From: a virus
Strand: one strand, 5' to 3'
IMG/VR virus record: IMGVR_UViG_3300037099_000532
Span: 1 to 54,447 of that record
DNA: 54,447 nt
Under the pieces are notes generated by a model. It was not told where the DNA came from and searched no databases. It was given only the letters and a program-made list of their open reading frames with translations. Shown piece after piece: positions 2,968 through 53,093 of the stretch; the first letter of the stretch is position 1, and the number at the start of each line of letters is the position of its first letter. The translations under genes were made by a program, and so were the position numbers.

Positions 2968-3354
2968 ATGAAACTCCAGACCATCACCACGCCGGGCGGC
3001 GATGAGCTCGTCGTCCTGCCGCGCGCCGAATATGACGCGCTGGTCGCCGCCGCGGCCGGGCGCGAAGAGGACGCCGACGACGTTGCGATCTACGACGCGC
3101 GTAAAGCCGAACTCGCGCGCGGCGTCGACGCACGCCTGCCGCCGGAAGTGAGCGCAGCGATGCTGCGCGGCGACAGCCTGCTCAAGGCGCTGCGCAAGTC
3201 GAAAGACATGACGCAGCTCCACTTGGCGTTCAAAACCAACATCGCCCAGGGCTACATCAGCGACATCGAGTCCGGCCGCCGCAAAGGCACCGTTGAAACC
3301 CTCACGGCGATCGCCAACGCGCTCGACGTCCCGGCCGAATGGCTGGTCGACTGA
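2968..3354 (+). CDS. XRE-family HTH antitoxin
   Basis: 128 residues. The C-terminal half is a Cro/CI-type helix-turn-helix (LLKALRKSKDMTQLHLAFKT...GYISDIESGRRKGTVETLTAIANAL), the DNA-binding part expected to act on the palindromes at 2646-2714. The N-terminal half (ELVVLPRAEYDALVAAAAG) resembles the short dimerisation/toxin-neutralising segments in RelE-XRE pairs. It is translated one base after the toxin stop. Its gene converges on the lipase gene (ending 3371), leaving 16 bases between the two stops. Confidence 0.8.
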   Translation: MKLQTITTPGGDELVVLPRAEYDALVAAAAGREEDADDVAIYDARKAELARGVDARLPPEVSAAMLRGDSLLKALRKSKDMTQLHLAFKTNIAQGYISDIESGRRKGTVETLTAIANALDVPAEWLVD

Positions 3355-30043: not shown

Positions 30044-32119
30044 CTACCGAAACAACGCCGCATTCTGTTGGCCGAGCCGTTCGAGCTCGGCCTCGAGCGT
30101 ATCGCCCGAAGGCGCGGCCTCGGCAGAAGCCTCATTCGTCACTTTCACCGGCCCGCCCGTTAGCGGCGCCGAGGCGGCAGCAGCCTCGACGGCGGCGCGC
30201 GGCTTGAACAGCGCCAGCGCATCGTCGGGCGGCATTCCGCGCGCTTTCGCCAGCGCCGCCCATTCGTCGTGGGTCAGCGCGCTCAAACCGAGCTTTTCGG
30301 CCAGAGCGAGCGCGTAGACGCGGCAGTCGAGAAAGTGGTTGTCGCGATCCGATGAGATCGGCTTCCACACCTTGCGCGTGCGGCCGCGAAAAGCCTCGTC
30401 GACCAGACGTTCGGCGGTGATCTGCTTGAAATAGGCTTCGTCGAGCCATGTCGCGAAATGGCAATAGCCGGGCGGGTCGACCGGCGCGCCCGAGCGCACG
30501 CCGATCTTGTGCAAATCGGCGTAGAACGCGCCTTTGAGCGGCCAAGTGCCGACCGGCCACAGTTTCACGCCCTTTTTGACCTTGTGGCCGGCGAGATCGA
30601 TGTCGACCAGCGACGGCGTGCCGATCGCCGGCTTGCCCCAACCGTCGCGCCCATCGACCGCGAACACCAGGTCCTCGCCGGTGTCGGGATGCACCCGCTG
30701 ATTTTGCCGCGTCCAGGCGTAGACGATGTGGCTGCGATAGCCGGAATCGACCGCCAGACCGTCGATGCGGCGCTTGCGTCCGAACGCGTCGTTGAATTCG
30801 CGCTCGAGCGTCAGCCGCTTGAGCTTGTCGAACGCCTCGCCTTCGACCGATTCGGTCGAGCCGTCGCAATAGAACGCGTCGACCACCCAGCTCTGCCGAT
30901 CGGGCGCGAAGGCGACGATCTCGCACCAGATGCCGCGCATCTGCACGTCGGCGGCGGCGATCAGGATGAGCCCGTTCGCCGGCACATGGCCGCGCGTCAA
31001 CCCCTCCTCGCGCCGCTCCATCAGCCGCGCGTGGTCGGGCGCGTCGCCCTTGTAGAGGTACGGCAGGCCGAGCTTGAGAGTGGAGAAGTCCTTCTGCGCG
31101 ATCGCGCCACCCTTGCGCGCCTTGAGCCAATCCTCGGCGATCGCCTCATAGCTCATCATCAGCGAGATGAACGCATCGATGTGAAAGCCCGGGTGGCGGT
31201 CAGGCCCTTCCGCCGTGGCGCGCCAGAAACCGTCGCGGATCATCGCCGGCCGGGCGTCGTCGTCGATCACGCCGCCACAATGCGGACAGACGTAGTAGCT
31301 CTTGTGCGGATGCGCCTCGTCGACCTTCAGCGACTTGAACGCGTGGACGAACGCTTCGCCGCAGGCTGGGCACGGGCAATGCCAGAAACGCTGATCCGAT
31401 CGCTTGAACGAGCGGTCGATGCGGCAATGGCCGGGCGCGTCGCCGGCATCGTCGCCCGAATCGACCTCCGGGGTCGAGATTTCGAGGATCTTCCAGTTGC
31501 GGCGGCGGCGGAAGGCGGTGAAGCGACCGAAAAACAGCGTTTCCGGGTCGCCGTAGCCGGGAATGTCCTGCCATTTCGACAATTCGTCCTTCACCCCCTT
31601 GCGGGCGGTGATCGACGACAGATCCATCACCGAATTGGCGTTGCGCAGCCACAGGCGGCCGCGCGGAAAGACCTTCTCGTAAGTGGTCGAACCCGACGCC
31701 GAGCGCGACGTCTGCGCCTCGATCACTTGGCGCCCGGTTCGCTTCTGCCAGGCGTCGATCAGCGGCTGCAGCTTGCCGGCGTTGAGATCGCGCAGCGCGT
31801 CGATGCCCGGCACGGCGTAGAGCGTGTTGGCGGGCTCGCAATCGGCGATGAATAGCGCCCAGCCAAGCGCCAGGATCGAGGCGCCCGATTGTTCCGACTT
31901 GCGCACCGTAACGAGATTCGCCGGATAGTCCTCATCGAGGCATTCGGCGATTCCGACAAGATACGGCGCGCCTCTCGCGTTCCATAGCCGTCCCGCCGAC
32001 GGCCCGTCGACCAGCACCAGGTTCTCTTCGAGCCAGCGCGCGAACGGCACCGCTGGCGGCGGTTCGATCCGCTCCGCCAGCGCCTCGAGCGTCGCTGCGG
32101 CGATCAGCGCGTCGCTCAT
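30044..32119 (-). CDS. Terminase large subunit, GpA family
   Basis: 691 residues. N-terminal ATPase with GpA-type P-loop variant (VTVRKSEQSGASILALGWAL), then SSITARKGVKDELSKW, two zinc knuckles (CPCPACGEAF and YVCPHCGGVID), a typical GpA insertion, and the nuclease part (GLAVDSGYRSHIVYAW, then FLDCRVYALALAEKL). It cuts concatemeric DNA and drives packaging. GpA enzymes of the lambda group make cos ends; no cos site can be pointed out here with confidence. Its ATG overlaps the small-subunit stop (ATGA). Confidence 0.93.
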   Translation of the reverse strand: MSDALIAAATLEALAERIEPPPAVPFARWLEENLVLVDGPSAGRLWNARGAPYLVGIAECLDEDYPANLVTVRKSEQSGASILALGWALFIADCEPANTLYAVPGIDALRDLNAGKLQPLIDAWQKRTGRQVIEAQTSRSASGSTTYEKVFPRGRLWLRNANSVMDLSSITARKGVKDELSKWQDIPGYGDPETLFFGRFTAFRRRRNWKILEISTPEVDSGDDAGDAPGHCRIDRSFKRSDQRFWHCPCPACGEAFVHAFKSLKVDEAHPHKSYYVCPHCGGVIDDDARPAMIRDGFWRATAEGPDRHPGFHIDAFISLMMSYEAIAEDWLKARKGGAIAQKDFSTLKLGLPYLYKGDAPDHARLMERREEGLTRGHVPANGLILIAAADVQMRGIWCEIVAFAPDRQSWVVDAFYCDGSTESVEGEAFDKLKRLTLEREFNDAFGRKRRIDGLAVDSGYRSHIVYAWTRQNQRVHPDTGEDLVFAVDGRDGWGKPAIGTPSLVDIDLAGHKVKKGVKLWPVGTWPLKGAFYADLHKIGVRSGAPVDPPGYCHFATWLDEAYFKQITAERLVDEAFRGRTRKVWKPISSDRDNHFLDCRVYALALAEKLGLSALTHDEWAALAKARGMPPDDALALFKPRAAVEAAAASAPLTGGPVKVTNEASAEAAPSGDTLEAELERLGQQNAALFR

Positions 32120-32808
32120 TGCGCGGTGCGGCCCGCGTCCTCTGTCACGCCGGCGCGCAGACGTCGCGCCTCGGCGCGCAACGCGTCGGCGATTTCGCGC
32201 CGCATCAGGATCTTCAATCGCTTCAGCGCCACGCCGAGACCGGCGGTCTTGATGATCGGCGCGAGGTCGTCTTCGTGGTCGTCGATCCGCTCGATCGCCT
32301 CGATGACCACGGACGCTCCGCGGTCATGTCCCTGCGCCACCGATTCCGTATCGACCAGCTTGCCCCTGACGACGTCGAGATCGATCCGCCGCCGCTCGGT
32401 CTCGAGCCAGGTCTTCTGCCGCAGCGCTTCGTCGTAGGTTTCGTTCGTCGACTCGTCAGAGTCGCCGCGCGACCGCGGCGCCTGCGCCTTCGAAGGGTCG
32501 TCGTAGCGGCCGCGCAGCGCATCGTACTCGGCGACGTTGAGCCGCGCGACGCGCCCCTGCGCGTCCCGCTCGACCGTCAGCCCATGCTGTTCGACGAAGC
32601 GCTTGACGCGAATCGACACGGTCGGCTTCGAGACGCCGTCCCGTTCCGCGACCTGCGCCACGCTCCACATCACGGCGCGCGGCGCGTTAGCGCTGTTAGC
32701 GGCCTCTGTTAGCACTGTTAGCCCTGAATTCCCGATCGCCTTACTGGCCAAAACGCAGACTGCCTCGGCCGCGTCTTCGATGGGGGGTGGCGGGGAAGGA
32801 CCCGTCAA
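32116..32808 (-). CDS. Terminase small subunit, Nu1-like with HTH
   Basis: 230 residues if translated from TTG 32808, which overlaps the GpZ-like gene stop (TTGA); ATG 32670 is an alternative that still keeps the DNA-binding domain. An HTH (VAQVAERDGVSKPTVSIRVK) is followed by a helical assembly region (YDEALRQKTWLETERRRIDL) with the L-V-D-x-E segment found in Nu1-like proteins. It recognises the packaging site and recruits the large subunit. Confidence 0.8.
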   Translation of the reverse strand: MTGPSPPPPIEDAAEAVCVLASKAIGNSGLTVLTEAANSANAPRAVMWSVAQVAERDGVSKPTVSIRVKRFVEQHGLTVERDAQGRVARLNVAEYDALRGRYDDPSKAQAPRSRGDSDESTNETYDEALRQKTWLETERRRIDLDVVRGKLVDTESVAQGHDRGASVVIEAIERIDDHEDDLAPIIKTAGLGVALKRLKILMRREIADALRAEARRLRAGVTEDAGRTAQ

Positions 32809-33386
32809 ATCAATCTGGCGAGGTGCTTGTCGATCATCGGCGGCACGACGGCCGACGCTTGCGTCAGGAAGGTTTCAGCGACCTTTCCTTTGACCGCTTC
32901 CTTCGCCAGGTTCGGTCCGTCGAAGCCGCGGATCGGCAGTCGCTCGCCACCGAGGCGCATGCGCAGGCCGCCGAGGAGCTTCTGTTGAAACGACCGCTTG
33001 AAGGTATGAGCGACGCCCCACATCCACACCGTGACGCCGCCGCCGGCCCCGCGCTTGACCTGTTTCTTGAACTCGCTCGGCTTGGTCGTCGGCTTGCCGA
33101 CGAAGATGATGGTGTAAGTCAGCGAGGCGGGTCGCGTCGGCCCGATTCCGCTCTTCGCCTCGCGTCCAACCCCGTACGCCCGAGCCGTGCGAGAACGGCT
33201 GGTCACCGAGTTGAGACGCACCAATCCGGTCTGTTCGCGCATCGCCGCGCGCACCTTCGTGCGAACGAGATCGCCGCCTTCGTTGAGTCCGCGGGCGATG
33301 GCGACCTGCACGCGCCCGCTCATCTTGGCCAGCGCCGCCGCCGTCTTGTCGAGATCGGACGTCATGCGCAGCGCAATCCCGCTCAT
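32805..33386 (-). CDS. Minor tail protein Z-like (GPZ) protein
   Basis: 193 residues from ATG 33386. MTSDLDKTAAALAKMSGRVQ, ARGLNEGGDLVRTKVRAAMR, EQTGLVRLNSV fit the prophage minor tail protein Z family that finishes the tail's head-proximal end. It is upstream of terminase rather than after the head genes, an unusual position. The start overlaps the preceding 66-residue gene (ATGA) and the stop overlaps terminase small, so the three are translationally coupled. Confidence 0.75.
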   Translation of the reverse strand: MSGIALRMTSDLDKTAAALAKMSGRVQVAIARGLNEGGDLVRTKVRAAMREQTGLVRLNSVTSRSRTARAYGVGREAKSGIGPTRPASLTYTIIFVGKPTTKPSEFKKQVKRGAGGGVTVWMWGVAHTFKRSFQQKLLGGLRMRLGGERLPIRGFDGPNLAKEAVKGKVAETFLTQASAVVPPMIDKHLARLI

Positions 33387-33583
33387 CGCGTCAACCTCCG
33401 CCGCGCCGCGGCGAGCAGCGCCTGGCGCGCCGAGGCCGCCAAGCCGACGGGATCGTGGCGTAAGTCGTCGACGAACGACCGGCCAATGAATTGCGCTTGA
33501 TTGACAGCCCCCGCGACGTCGCCGCGGCGCAACGCGCGCACGCCGGCGACGATCGCGACGCGCCTTTCGGCGCATTGGCACAT
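33383..33583 (-). CDS. Small hypothetical protein at the start of the late operon
   Basis: 66 residues from ATG 33583 (MCQCAERRVAIVAGVRALRR), with GGGGGTCGTC upstream. Two Cys at the N-terminus, then a helical basic stretch (GRSFVDDLRHDPVGLAASAR). Its TGA overlaps the GpZ-like start. First gene after the hairpins that follow the NusG-like gene. Unknown function. Confidence 0.5.
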   Translation of the reverse strand: MCQCAERRVAIVAGVRALRRGDVAGAVNQAQFIGRSFVDDLRHDPVGLAASARQALLAAARRRLTR

Positions 33584-33692
33584 GACGACCCCCAAATAGG
33601 AAAATCGAAAAAGGAGGGTCGGAACGGCCGAAGGATGGTCGGAGGGCCGTTCGGCGACCGCGCTCGACGCGGTTTTCGCCATTGCGGCGGCA

Positions 33693-33748
33693 GGGTGGGG
33701 TTGCATATTTGCAACACCGCCCCGCAGATCGCGCTCCAATAGGGAGCG
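33693..33748 (-). terminator. Two hairpins between the NusG-like gene and the late genes
   Basis: CGCTCC-AATAG-GGAGCG (33732-33748) lies 25 bases beyond the NusG-like stop. A second, larger hairpin at 33693-33722 has GTTGCA-TATT-TGCAAC as its tip and GGGTGG/CCGCCC flanks with one mismatch and one G-T pair. Neither ends in a U-run on the minus strand. They stand exactly where late transcription would need to be either stopped or allowed through, so they may be terminators or signals for the antiterminator. Confidence 0.45.
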
Positions 33749-33772
33749 ACTCGCGTTGGGCGACTCGGATAG

Positions 33773-34525
33773 CTAAACCGGCTCGACTTGGCAAGCGTTG
33801 AACGTCGCCGGCGTTGCGCCGCCGAACAGCGACAGACTGACCCGGACGCGCATTTCCGCCGGCAAAGCCTCGACAATGCCTTCGAAATCGGCGAATGGCC
33901 CGTCGAGCACGCGCACGCGACCGCCTGTGCGTAAGTGGGTCTGGCCGCGCCAATTGGCCCACCACTGGCCCGCGACTTCCAGCTTGTTGATCTCTTCGAT
34001 GATTCGCGGCGCGACGGGCGTCGGCTTGCGGGCGTCGCCGAGCACGACGCCGACGCGTTCGCCAAAGCCGTTGTAAATCTCGCGGCCGATCTCTTGGCCG
34101 GGCGCGCAGCCAACGAACAGATAGGGCGCGAACACAACAAACTGCCGCATCCTGCGCCCGCGCCGTTCGACGCCGCCGCGGCTCACCCGCGCCCGCAGCG
34201 CCAGTTTGCGCCCCAGCGGGCAGTAGGGCCGATAGCCTTGGGCGGCGAGGTCGCGCGCGACGCGCAGCTCGGAGCCGGGCGCCACGCGGGCCACCACCCA
34301 TCGCAACCCTTCGACCTCGATCTTGACCGGCTCGACCAGCCTTTCGGCTTCCGGCGCGCTCCCCTCGGGCTTCGGCGTCGGCGCAGGTTCGTATTGCAGC
34401 GCCGCGCGTTGATCGGCCGACAGTCCAGCGAGGTAAGCTTCGAGGCTTTCGGCGGGAATCTTCGCCGCTGGCCGAAGGCCCGTCGCCCGAAACGTCCCGC
34501 CGTTCGCCCCCCTGCGCGTTTTCAT
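33773..34525 (-). CDS. NusG/RfaH-family transcription elongation factor (putative late antiterminator)
   Basis: 250 residues from ATG 34525 (MKTRRGANGG). A Pro/Glu-rich N-terminal extension (1-70) precedes an NGN domain (RWVVARVAPGSELRVARDLA, QGYRPYCPLGRKLALRARV, RRGRRMRQFVVFAPYLFVGC) and a C-terminal KOW motif (TGGRVRVLDGPFADFEGIVE). NusG paralogues bind RNA polymerase over the clamp and suppress pausing or termination. It is the last gene of the leftward early operon and directly precedes the late genes, the genomic position of lambda Q, so control of late transcription is the natural inference. Bacterial NusG lacks the N-terminal extension. Confidence 0.85.
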   Translation of the reverse strand: MKTRRGANGGTFRATGLRPAAKIPAESLEAYLAGLSADQRAALQYEPAPTPKPEGSAPEAERLVEPVKIEVEGLRWVVARVAPGSELRVARDLAAQGYRPYCPLGRKLALRARVSRGGVERRGRRMRQFVVFAPYLFVGCAPGQEIGREIYNGFGERVGVVLGDARKPTPVAPRIIEEINKLEVAGQWWANWRGQTHLRTGGRVRVLDGPFADFEGIVEALPAEMRVRVSLSLFGGATPATFNACQVEPV

Positions 34526-34570
34526 GGTCCGATGCCTCTCCCGACGAGCCCAACGCGCCAAACGCCCGCT

Positions 34571-35632
34571 TCACGCAACGAAAGCCTCGTCTTCGGGCGG
34601 CCCGGTGGAGGCTTCCGCGGGCGACGGCTGCGGCGCGGCGACGCCGGGCGGAAACAGGGTTGGCCGCCACGCGCCGTCGCAGCCGAGTTCGGGGTTGTGC
34701 GAGAAGAACGGCTCGCCGCGCGCGAAGCCCTTTTGCCGCCGCCACACCGCGGTCCAGGCCGTCCACGCCTTGGTGCCGCGCCGCACCCAGGCCTGCGGCG
34801 CGACGGCGGGGTTTTCCGGCTGCGCCTTGGCGATCAACGCCAGGCCGTCGAACTCGCAATCGCGCAGCCATTGCGCCGCGTCCATCACCGAGCGCCGGCC
34901 GCCTTCCTTGACGCCAGCGGCGTAGACCGGCGCGAAACGCAGCGCCTTTTCGCGCTGCTTGGCGGTCAGTTCGAAGAACTCGCGCCGCGCTGCGTTGACC
35001 GACATCCAGCTGCGCACCGGATAGCGCTGGAGTAAGAGCTTGAACTGTTCGTCGCGCTTGGCCGCAGCCGTCTCTTGCCCGCCGAGCCCCTCCGTCCCGC
35101 CGCCGCGCTGTTCGTCGTCGCGCGCGCCCGCAGTCTCAGGCTCGCTGCTGGAAAGAGAGGAGTCCTGTTTAGGATTCAAGATTCCCGTATTAAGTGAGGC
35201 AGTCCGAACGCCGGACTCCCCCCAGTCCGCCTGCTGGACTCCCCTCTCCGCTTGTCCACAGGGGGAGTCCGTATTCTGGACTGGGGGGGAGTCCGGGAGC
35301 TGGACTGCCCCCCCTTCAGCTTCTGCGGTCGCCGCAACGCCTTCCGTTTCGCCGAAAGCGCGATCGAGCCGCAACTGGATCGAGATGAGCTCGCCGCCGT
35401 TGTCGCGCCGACCGGTCGCCAACCGCACCGCAACCCCGCCATCCTCGAGCCGGCGCAGATGGGCGAACACCGTCGAGCGCGACAGCTCGCCGCAATCGGT
35501 GAGATACTTGACCGAGAGAAAGCGCACGAAGCCGTCGGCGTCGGCCACGTCGGCGAGCAGCAGCAACACCGTCTTGGTCGAGCCCGACCCGGTGCGGACG
35601 CGCTTCGCCCATCTCAGCGCTTCGCTGCTCAC
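34571..35632 (-). CDS. Winged-helix replication-initiator-like protein (lambda O-type position)
   Basis: 353 residues from GTG 35632, whose GTGA overlaps the previous stop. The N-terminal wHTH (GSTKTVLLLLADVADADGFV, RFLSVKYLTDCGELSRSTVF, AHLRRLEDGGVAVRLATGR) resembles phage replication proteins and replisome organisers; the middle is low-complexity and polar. The C-terminal part (LLLQRYPVRSWMSVNAARRE, then DAAQWLRDCEFDGLALIAKA) is shared among phage proteins of this type. It probably binds the phage origin, perhaps within its own gene as in lambda; no iterons are obvious. A regulator role is not excluded. Confidence 0.65.
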   Translation of the reverse strand: MSSEALRWAKRVRTGSGSTKTVLLLLADVADADGFVRFLSVKYLTDCGELSRSTVFAHLRRLEDGGVAVRLATGRRDNGGELISIQLRLDRAFGETEGVAATAEAEGGAVQLPDSPPVQNTDSPCGQAERGVQQADWGESGVRTASLNTGILNPKQDSSLSSSEPETAGARDDEQRGGGTEGLGGQETAAAKRDEQFKLLLQRYPVRSWMSVNAARREFFELTAKQREKALRFAPVYAAGVKEGGRRSVMDAAQWLRDCEFDGLALIAKAQPENPAVAPQAWVRRGTKAWTAWTAVWRRQKGFARGEPFFSHNPELGCDGAWRPTLFPPGVAAPQPSPAEASTGPPEDEAFVA

Positions 35633-42652: not shown

Positions 42653-42994
42653 TCATGCGTCCGCCCCGAACAAGGACGCGGCGGCGCCGGAAGGTCGCGC
42701 CGCCGCGTCAGGTGGGGAGGATACGACGCACACACCCTCGCGGGCCTCGAACGCGCCGGTCGACGCCGGCGCGAATGCAAGTTCTCCGGGTGGCAAGCGG
42801 GCCGACGACGCCGCGCCGCGCCAGATAGGGGCCGCAGTCTCGGTAATCCAGCCACGCGCCGGCGCGATCAGCGTCCGCTCGCAGCCGATGCAACGCCCGA
42901 CCCAAAACCGCGCCCCCTCGCCGGTCACGCGCAGCCGCCCCTCGGCGACGAAGCCGCAGGCGCAGGCGACCAGCATGGAGGCGGACGCCGTCAT
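42653..42994 (-). CDS. Small Cys-containing early protein
   Basis: 113 residues from ATG 42994, overlapping the Cro-like stop (ATGA). ACACGFVAEGRLRVTGEGAR then FWVGRCIGCERTLIAP holds two C-x(1-2)-C pairs, a likely zinc ribbon. The rest is Ala/Pro-rich. Unknown. Confidence 0.5.
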   Translation of the reverse strand: MTASASMLVACACGFVAEGRLRVTGEGARFWVGRCIGCERTLIAPARGWITETAAPIWRGAASSARLPPGELAFAPASTGAFEAREGVCVVSSPPDAAARPSGAAASLFGADA

Positions 42995-43260
42995 TGACCG
43001 CCCCAGTCTTCGTCGTCGGCTTCGCCGTCTTCCCCGGCGATCGCCTGCAGGCATTCGACCGGCGTCATGCCCGGCTTGGCGAGCCCCCGCGCGATCGCCG
43101 CCTCGAGCATGTGCAGCAGGCGCGAAACCGGACCCGATTCGGGCTGGCCGCGCTCGATATTGGCGACGCTGGGTTGGGAAAGGCCGAGGAATTCGGCCAT
43201 CGCCCATTGCTGCCAGCCGAGGGCGGCGCGGAGGCGCTTGATGCGAGCGTCGGTGTCCAT
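42991..43260 (-). CDS. Cro-like XRE-family repressor, leaderless start
   Basis: 89 residues from ATG 43260. HTH: RIKRLRAALGWQQWAMAEFL then GLSQPSVANIERGQPESGP. Divergent from the S24 repressor gene, with the operators and its own promoter between. Its -10 box ends seven bases before the ATG, so the mRNA probably begins at or next to the start codon. First gene of the leftward early operon, the place of Cro, so it likely competes with the repressor for the same operators. Confidence 0.75.
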   Translation of the reverse strand: MDTDARIKRLRAALGWQQWAMAEFLGLSQPSVANIERGQPESGPVSRLLHMLEAAIARGLAKPGMTPVECLQAIAGEDGEADDEDWGGQ

Positions 43261-43331: not shown

Positions 43332-44015
43332 ATGAACCACGGGCAGGCGGAACGGCTGAAACGCGCGCGGATTGAGGCGGGCTATGCGAAGGCGATCGAC
43401 GCCGCCCGCGCCCTCGACGTTGAGCCAGGCACATACAACCACCACGAAAACGGCACCGCCGGGCTGTCGCGCGCCGGCGAAAGGTACGCGCGTTTCTTCG
43501 GCGTCAACCTCGAGTGGCTGCTGACCGGCAAAGGCGAGATGCGGCCGTCACATTCCGCTCCGGCGCCCGAGGTGGCGATTGACGGGATCGTGCGCGCCGG
43601 CGCGGAAATCCAATCGAATGCGGACCTTCCCGATTTTGGAGGTCCGACAGTGATCAAAGTTCCATCCGGCGACGGCGTCGGCGCCTATGTGGTTAGTGGC
43701 GATTCGCAGTGGCCGCGCTTTCTCGACGGCGAACTCATTCTTTACGAGAAACGTCCGCGCGCCCCGAGCGAACTGCTCGACAATTACGCCATTGTGCAAA
43801 CGCTCGACGGCCGGCGCGTCATCAAGATCGTGCGCGCCAATCCCAACGGCGGCGACGACCTGTGGCGGCTCGAGTCGCACAACGCGCCGCCCGAAGACGA
43901 CGTCAAGATCCTCGCCGCCTGGCGCTATCTCGGCGTGCTGCCGCGCCAGGAGGCGACGAGCCTGCCGTCGCTGAAAACCCCAAAGCCGCGCCTCGGGCAC
44001 GCGAGGAAACGCTAG
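43332..44015 (+). CDS. CI/LexA-type prophage repressor with S24 self-cleavage domain
   Basis: 227 residues. N-terminal HTH (1-70: RLKRARIEAGYAKAIDAARA, EWLLTGKGEMRP). The C-terminal S24 domain has a cleavage-site Ala89-Gly90 (GIVRAGAEIQ), catalytic Ser125 (VSGDSQWPRFLDGE) and Lys165 (RRVIKIVRAN). RecA-stimulated autocleavage would link induction to DNA damage. Opposite orientation to the Cro-like gene and bordered on both sides by operator pairs. It is the maintainer of lysogeny. Confidence 0.9.
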   Translation: MNHGQAERLKRARIEAGYAKAIDAARALDVEPGTYNHHENGTAGLSRAGERYARFFGVNLEWLLTGKGEMRPSHSAPAPEVAIDGIVRAGAEIQSNADLPDFGGPTVIKVPSGDGVGAYVVSGDSQWPRFLDGELILYEKRPRAPSELLDNYAIVQTLDGRRVIKIVRANPNGGDDLWRLESHNAPPEDDVKILAAWRYLGVLPRQEATSLPSLKTPKPRLGHARKR

Positions 44016-51937: not shown

Positions 51938-53093
51938 ATGAAACGATCCGGCCTGCCGCGATATGTGATCCAAGACGCCTGCCGCGATGGTCGGCCGCGG
52001 CTGCGCTATCGCGCTCCCGGCCATCCGGCGCGCGACTTGCCGGGGCCGTTCGGTTCGGATGCCTTTTGGAGGGCCTACGCGGCCGCCAAGGCCGGCCAGC
52101 CGGTCAACCGGCGCAGACGGCGCCACGAAGCGCCGCAAAGCCGCCGACGGCACGCTTCGCGCTCTTATCGAGGCCTACTACCGCCGCGCGCCGGATTTCG
52201 TCGCCGCCGACCCACTGACGCAGGCCGACAAGCGCGGAGTTCTCGAAGGCATCCTCAGAGAGGCGCTGGCGCCCGACAATCCGCTTCTCTTTGACGAGTG
52301 CCCAGTCAAGAGCTTCACACCGCGCCACGTCGTCGTGCTGCGCGATCGCAAGGCGAGCCTCCCCAACGCCGGCAACAAGCGGCTGCGCTATCTCAAGATG
52401 GTTTTCGACTGGGGAATCGAGGCGCGGCTGGCCGAGACGAATCCGGTCGAGAAGGTCAAAAAGCTGAAGGTCCCTCGCAAGGGCTTCCATGCCTGGACGC
52501 CCGAGGAAATCCGCCAATTCGAGACCCGGCATCCGATCGGCACCAAGGCGCGCCTCGCGTTGGCCCTGATGGCGTTCACCGGTCTGCGCGTTTCCGACCT
52601 CCGCCAAGTCGGGGCGCGGCATATCAAGGATGGATGGCTGGAGCTGCCGCAGCACAAGAATCGCAATCGAGCGCCGAAGATCATTCGCGTGCCGATACTG
52701 CCCGAGCTGCAGGCGATCATCGACCGTTCGCCGATCGGCGAACCGACGCTTCTCGTCACCGACGCCGGCGAACCCTTCACGATCAAGGGGGCGGCCAACA
52801 AGGTCAAACAATGGTGCGTCGCGGCCGGCCTGCCGCATTGCTCCGCCCACGGCGTCCGCAAGGCGGGCGCGGCGGTGGCCGCCGAGAACGGCGCGACCGA
52901 GGCGCAACTGATGGCGATCTTCGGTTGGGAGGATGCGAAAGAGGCGGTCGTCTACACCCGCTCAGCCCGCCAAAAGAAGCTCGCCGGCGACGCCATGCAC
53001 CTGATGTTGCCGCGCCTCGACCCGGCCCCTAAATCCTCCCACGCAATTCCCGAAACCGAGCGGGGGGAAGAAATGGCGATAATTACTCAATGA
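51938..53093 (+). pseudogene. int: Tyrosine-recombinase integrase, apparent +1 frameshift near 52106
   Basis: From ATG 51938, frame 1 reads MKRSGLPRYVIQDACRDGRP and LPGPFGSDAFWRAYAAAKAG, the typical N-terminus of this family, then becomes Arg-rich nonsense. The family sequence resumes one frame over (TKRRKAADGTLRALIEAYYR onward). Dropping one A of the AA at 52106-52107 would join them as GQPVTGADGATKR. The catalytic part is complete: Arg in FTGLRVSDLR, His-x-x-Arg in HGVRKAGAA, and Tyr in VVYTRSARQKK. The integrase is therefore broken, read through a rare frameshift, or affected by a base-call error. It would integrate at the adjacent tRNA-Trp sequence. Confidence 0.8.

Follow-up and report, generated by a model that had tools for sequence, protein, structure and literature searches.

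A phage NusG paralogue at the position of lambda Q: a probable RNA-dependent late-gene antiterminator whose relatives have structured leader RNAs

The NusG-like protein encoded in the phage sequence analysed here (the window; an IMG/VR virus record of 54,447 nucleotides) is probably an RNA-dependent antiterminator of the late genes, LoaP-like in its mode of action and placed at the position that Q occupies in lambda. NusG paralogues are known as antiterminators of long operons, as in the cases of RfaH, LoaP, UpxY and the paralogues of plasmid tra operons, and to our knowledge it is not known how the late genes are activated in most phages outside the lambda group. Sequence comparisons support the Q-slot reading well, since the occupants of the slot are mutually exclusive, published phages have a NusG gene at the same place, and the relatives possess a conserved RNA together with a terminator. 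With less assurance, we also lean towards the wider reading that NusG paralogues have repeatedly been recruited as the late switch of alphaproteobacterial phages, each lineage with its own leader RNA (classes I to III and divergent forms like that of the window). These would constitute a new family of antitermination systems made up of NusG and RNA and situated where lambda has Q, with the unrelated family phrog_9306 as an alternative late antiterminator at the same place.

Gene calls and family matches gave the window the layout of a temperate lambdoid phage, with an integrase gene (52059-53093, plus strand) and an immunity region in which a CI-like repressor gene (43332-44015, plus strand) faces an HTH gene (42991-43260, minus strand). 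A leftward early run starts at the immunity region and ends with the gene for an O-like replication initiation protein (34571-35632), directly followed by that of the NusG-like protein (33773-34525), both on the minus strand. On the same strand, a non-coding leader of 189 nt (33584-33772) extends from the NusG stop codon to the first late ORF, which encodes a 66-aa CxC protein (33383-33583). Next come the genes for a Neck1/tail-completion protein (phrog_27; 32805-33386), the small terminase subunit TerS (phrog_57; 32116-32670) and the GpA-type large subunit TerL (30044-32119), and then the portal and capsid genes, all on the minus strand down to about 1.1 kb; the late operon is approximately 32 kb long. 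In Rhizobium phage PPF1 (L074 1-705 and L073 5939-6475), the ends of the linear record fall between the neck1 and TerS genes, which suggests a cos site there, and a similar cos site may lie within 32671-32804 of the window.

The NusG-like protein comprises 250 aa, with an N-terminal extension of approximately 70 residues. Residues 75-179 matched the Pfam NusG NGN family (E 3.9e-6; 27.7 against a gathering score of 22.2), and the Pfam KOW match (E 0.0017) fell just under the curated cut-off. The AF2 model displayed an NGN domain, a beta-barrel KOW domain and a mostly disordered N-terminal extension. Its fold agreed with NusG over residues 73-250, the PDB matches being NusG and RfaH, and the NGN model aligned with RfaH with a Z of 11.7 over 99 residues. 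Judged by these domain matches and the predicted fold, the protein belongs to the NusG/Spt5 superfamily, with NGN and KOW; together with the gene calls, this confirms the proposal of the first-pass annotation that an NGN-KOW protein with an N-terminal extension ends the leftward early operon. The KOW domain is unusually close to that of host NusG, with 39.8% identity to the Salmonella protein (residues 158-248) and 49% identity to the E. coli CTD over 57 columns, and contacts to the ribosome, NusA or Rho may therefore be kept.

Among the NCBIfam models, the protein missed the equivalog cut-offs of both housekeeping NusG (TIGR00922; 42.6 versus 135.7 bits) and RfaH (36.5 versus 144.5 bits), scored far below the cut-off for UpxY and gave no match to LoaP at E <= 0.1; a relative (L042) reached 55 bits with the LoaP model, whose cut-off is 125. 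PHROG 6386, labelled 'transcription antiterminator', was matched at E 3e-26. Host NusG scores even higher with this profile than the phage proteins do, so that the label alone proves nothing, and the match was rejected as evidence of a phage-specific family. The protein scan of IMG/VR revealed no close relatives, and 397 genomes gave a single match, of 35% identity. In the tree, the window protein fell outside the clade of NusGs associated with the class I RNA described below, on a long branch near chromosomal paralogues. The NusGs found in the slot derive from several lineages, many with long branches, and a single common origin was rejected for want of support in the tree.

The leader of the window is strongly structured. 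Minus-strand RNA from 33586-33760 folded with -77.8 kcal/mol, compared to -60.3 +/- 3.9 kcal/mol for shuffled sequences (z -4.5), a value reached by none of 200 shuffles. Two hairpins had been described between the NusG-like gene and the late genes, and both are real: hairpin A (CGCTCC/GGAGCG) at 33732-33748 and hairpin B at 33690-33725. The count was too low, however, as the leader contains at least five, the others being hairpin C (CGCC GCAAT GGCG; 33677-33689), hairpin D (CCGCG/CGCGG; 33658-33672) and hairpin E (AACGGCC/GGCCGTT with a 15-nt loop; 33623-33651), all on the minus strand. Hairpin E is followed after approximately 10 nt by a T5 stretch and is not a canonical terminator. Three simple terminator scans recognised no intrinsic terminator in the gap, and the hairpins have no U-tract at the proper position; a putative transcription stop in the leader may be Rho-dependent or weak. 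The 16-mer TGCCGCCGCAATGGCG of hairpin C occurs exactly in a relative (L003), where the hairpin has a T-tract behind it and is scored as a terminator. Searching Rfam gave nothing on the leader and only a chance RT-15 match in the region (E 0.37).

The corresponding slot was assessed in 94 TerL-anchored loci in which the sequence ahead of the packaging genes was readable, taken from viral contigs and alphaproteobacterial genomes and including some duplicates. It held a NusG-like ORF in 22 loci, phrog_9306 in 57 and neither in 15, and the two were never found together in the 94 loci. The family phrog_9306 consists of proteins of approximately 270 residues of unknown function, unrelated to NusG, and lies upstream of TerS in L002, L007, L020, L021, L025, L026, L030, L036 and others. 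Its predicted structure is a good model (pLDDT 82), whose fold matched nothing in PDB or BFVD at E <= 0.001. The order replication initiator, NusG, terminase was also present in Mesorhizobium vB_MseS-P1, Sinorhizobium phi3LM21, Rhizobium vB_RleM_PPF1 and Nostoc Nsp-JY10, so that the occurrence at the same place in related phages, which had been named as a check, was found in these four published phages as well as in the 22 loci. The packaging genes beside the slot NusGs are of both the HK97 and the GpA type, which indicates that the regulator is not merely travelling with one packaging module. Some further features were observed around the slot. The CxC protein (MCQCAERR...) heads the late operon with either occupant (also in L003, L039, L022, L025 and L026), and a DUF6362 protein near the slot of a TerL relative (L010 14-616), with a weak match to the Q-like phrog_79 (E 0.025), is possibly a third occupant. 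Rfam matches to the suhB/mmgR sRNA lie near slot-NusG prophages (L048 426-498 and L262 3942-4020).

In the published phages, the gaps that follow NusG have a 23-nt motif in common. IMG/VR was scanned with the exact degenerate motif, adjacency to NusG playing no part in the selection, which yielded 108 loci; in all 98 with enough flanking sequence, the same strand has a NusG-like ORF whose end lies 93-158 nt upstream. A large subset of relatives, among them phi3LM21, has a covarying RNA of approximately 160 nt (class I), which begins at the NusG stop codon. The alignment of 42 non-redundant members supports eight helices, of which the outermost, involving approximately 75 nt of transcript, is paired in 100% of the sequences; four of its five pairs show changes on both sides. 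Taking all helices together, 93.7% of the cells were paired, compared to at most 47% when the partners were slid, and the covariation score was 0.310, compared to 0.162 in shuffled and at most 0.108 in slid alignments. The changes on both sides (139 cells, compared to 45 in shuffles) carry more weight, since the structure was derived from the same sequences, which favours the pairing percentage.

Rfam has no such family, and the leaders of the relatives gave no Rfam match. The class I covariance model (R1) found the RNA in five of 65 earlier sources, in each case immediately behind a slot NusG, and had further matches in additional slot-NusG loci. Among 488 alphaproteobacterial genomes it matched one, where the RNA starts at the stop codon of a NusG gene and TerS lies downstream, and the RNA likewise begins at the NusG stop in all 15 matches from NusG-anchored viral loci. 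No copy was found downstream of phrog_9306 or next to the chromosomal paralogues of NusG. In one locus (L033 5112-5185), a tRNA gene separates the class I RNA from the late genes.

Of 62 non-redundant class I loci, 52 have an intrinsic terminator after the RNA, compared to 21 of 254 pieces taken at random from these loci, and the terminator begins at a median of 15 nt past the RNA motif. From the terminator hairpin to the first late start codon the median distance is 17 nt, and it is at most 42 nt in 44 of 51 class I loci. This leaves no room for a promoter, so that late transcription in these phages must cross the terminator. Slots with phrog_9306 likewise have intrinsic terminators (25 of 46, compared to 10 of 203 random pieces), which suggests that this family does the same job as the slot NusGs and makes it a candidate new late antiterminator. 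As the RNA and the terminator are separate elements in the relatives, some of the window hairpins are more likely a recognition or antitermination structure than stop signals. The idea that late expression depends on the NusG-like protein letting polymerase through the hairpins thus gained from the slot, the RNA and the terminators of the relatives, but the hairpins of the window themselves are not recognisable as intrinsic terminators.

These distances also bear on the foremost alternative, according to which the late genes use a promoter of their own that some other factor of the phage or the host activates. On this view, the NusG-like gene simply happens to come last among the early genes, and the hairpins form an operator or mark where the early operon ends. 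We consider this alternative unlikely, the late start codon of the class I loci being too close to the terminator hairpin. As had been noted before, there is no obvious strong promoter at the head of the late genes: no sigma-70-like promoter was found in the gap, by a scan that does not cover every promoter type and leaves out alphaproteobacterial and activator-dependent promoters, which gives this alternative some room. An early operon would also be expected to end in a terminator if the late genes owned a promoter, which counts against the antiterminator reading, and the late genes of the Caulobacter GTA are served by a promoter-bound antiterminator, GafZ (PMC11150451). Moreover, hairpin B holds a perfect palindrome, GTTGCA-N4-TGCAAC, at 33700-33715; it has no second copy in the window, which speaks against an operator, and it was rejected as a repeated one.

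Other slot NusGs are followed by different leaders. In class II (L039, L203, L223, L262, L263, L266 and L268-L274), three to five AGCCACCC repeats, about 11-13 nt apart, come right after the NusG stop and precede an intrinsic terminator; the repeats could be a repeated binding site or a Rho site. The class III leader (L275-L286, L312 and L324) has covarying helices of its own, and its GCTTCACC can pair either with the upstream GGTGAAGC or with the downstream GGCGAAGC, two pairings that exclude each other and resemble a switch. Neither covariance model matches the window leader significantly, and this, like its lack of a recognisable intrinsic terminator and the place of the window NusG outside the class I clade, argues against the antiterminator reading. 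The best match of R1 within 33200-34700 had 2.3 bits and lay on the opposite strand. The class III model (R2) could be placed at full length on the minus strand at 33671-33768, with only 3.8 bits (E 0.45), and its best match over the whole window (20.6 bits at 3141-3222) lies outside the leader and looks like background. The stretch 33671-33768 is nevertheless collinear with the class III leaders, having AGCGC.ATC.GC, a hairpin and the 13-mer core CCGCAATGGCGAA in the same place and order. Its top-5 alignment score was reached by none of 300 shuffles, whereas 3% of the pieces drawn at random from the window reached it. By this resemblance, the leader is possibly a divergent class III leader. 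The end-to-end similarity to class III and the hairpin C 16-mer in common with L003 make the window a probable, though unproven, divergent member of the NusG-leader systems.

The strong structure and covariation of the leader RNAs would also suit a put-like antiterminator that acts by itself, or an attenuator by which the NusG gene regulates itself, the protein having another job. The put RNA of HK022 is reported to work without a phage protein (PMC9378689). This alternative appears improbable, as the RNA was found only directly behind the slot NusG family and neither with phrog_9306 nor with chromosomal NusG paralogues, and an attenuator of the NusG gene would be expected upstream of that gene. 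Slightly less probable still is that the protein, with no specific late role, chiefly affects host transcription in trans, for instance by taking the place of host NusG so that Rho silencing of the phage DNA is relieved. This would fit the host-like KOW domain but conflicts with the fixed position at the early/late junction, the mutual exclusion with phrog_9306 and the RNA partner in cis in relatives.

If the protein is indeed an RNA-dependent antiterminator, early transcripts would normally end in the leader until enough of the NusG paralogue has been made. The nascent leader RNA would then recruit it to the elongation complex, where its NGN domain would occupy the beta' clamp instead of host NusG, and the polymerase, thus made processive, would read through the leader and the rest of the late operon. 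Recruitment by the leader RNA is the most likely route, by analogy with LoaP and the dfn hairpin. Building on the observed protein family, gene position, RNA structure and terminators of the relatives, we infer RNA binding, read-through and a dependence of the late genes on the protein.

The protein as such is not new, since GenBank already annotates some of the slot genes as 'transcription antitermination protein NusG'; the novelty lies in the slot, in the RNA as partner and in how the terminator is arranged. Within the open PMC papers, to which the search was confined, no description of a phage NusG as late-gene regulator or of the class I RNA was found, and the phi3LM21 paper mentions neither NusG nor antitermination. 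The results offer a concrete, testable answer to how the late genes are switched on in a large set of rhizobial and related phages. The specialised NusG family gains a phage branch, and phrog_9306 a predicted function. They also provide a class of covarying RNA that Rfam lacks and whose protein partner is obvious, and suggest that NusG-type factors can gain operon specificity through an RNA address in their own operon.

Compared to known systems, the protein resembles RfaH as an NGN-KOW paralogue of NusG whose modelled NGN domain matches that of RfaH. The RfaH KOW is, however, an alpha-helical hairpin, whereas that of the window protein is predicted as a beta barrel, in a single AF2 model, which does not speak for or against fold switching. 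RfaH uses an ops DNA element, and the proposed search for an ops-like sequence showed no excess, the window having 43 matches against 34.7 +/- 5.3 expected. As in lambda N-nut and HK022 put, the RNA element lies within the operon, upstream of terminators; the class I RNA is larger than nut or put and unrelated to them by Rfam, and the partner is a NusG paralogue instead of the short N-type peptide of lambda. Conjugative plasmids carry NusG paralogues in their tra operons (PMC7593976), likewise a mobile element with its own paralogue for a long operon, for which that paper describes no phage late role or RNA partner. With lambda Q, Q21 and GafZ, the protein shares the location between replication and packaging genes, the place as last early gene and the presumed late antitermination, but no relation in sequence or fold was seen; Q and GafZ load at a DNA site of the promoter, whereas the relatives have an element that is transcribed, as a covarying RNA, within the operon of the regulator itself. 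The closest parallel in arrangement is with LoaP of Bacillus velezensis, whose antitermination requires the leader RNA hairpin dfn/mln and for which read-through has been shown experimentally (PMC12691694). Both systems combine a NusG paralogue, a leader RNA element and an intrinsic terminator ahead of a long operon, the terminator being present here in the class I relatives and not found in the window. LoaP serves polyketide operons by way of a small UNCG hairpin, whereas the phage proteins would serve late genes, in class I through an RNA of approximately 160 nt that starts at the stop codon of the regulator itself.
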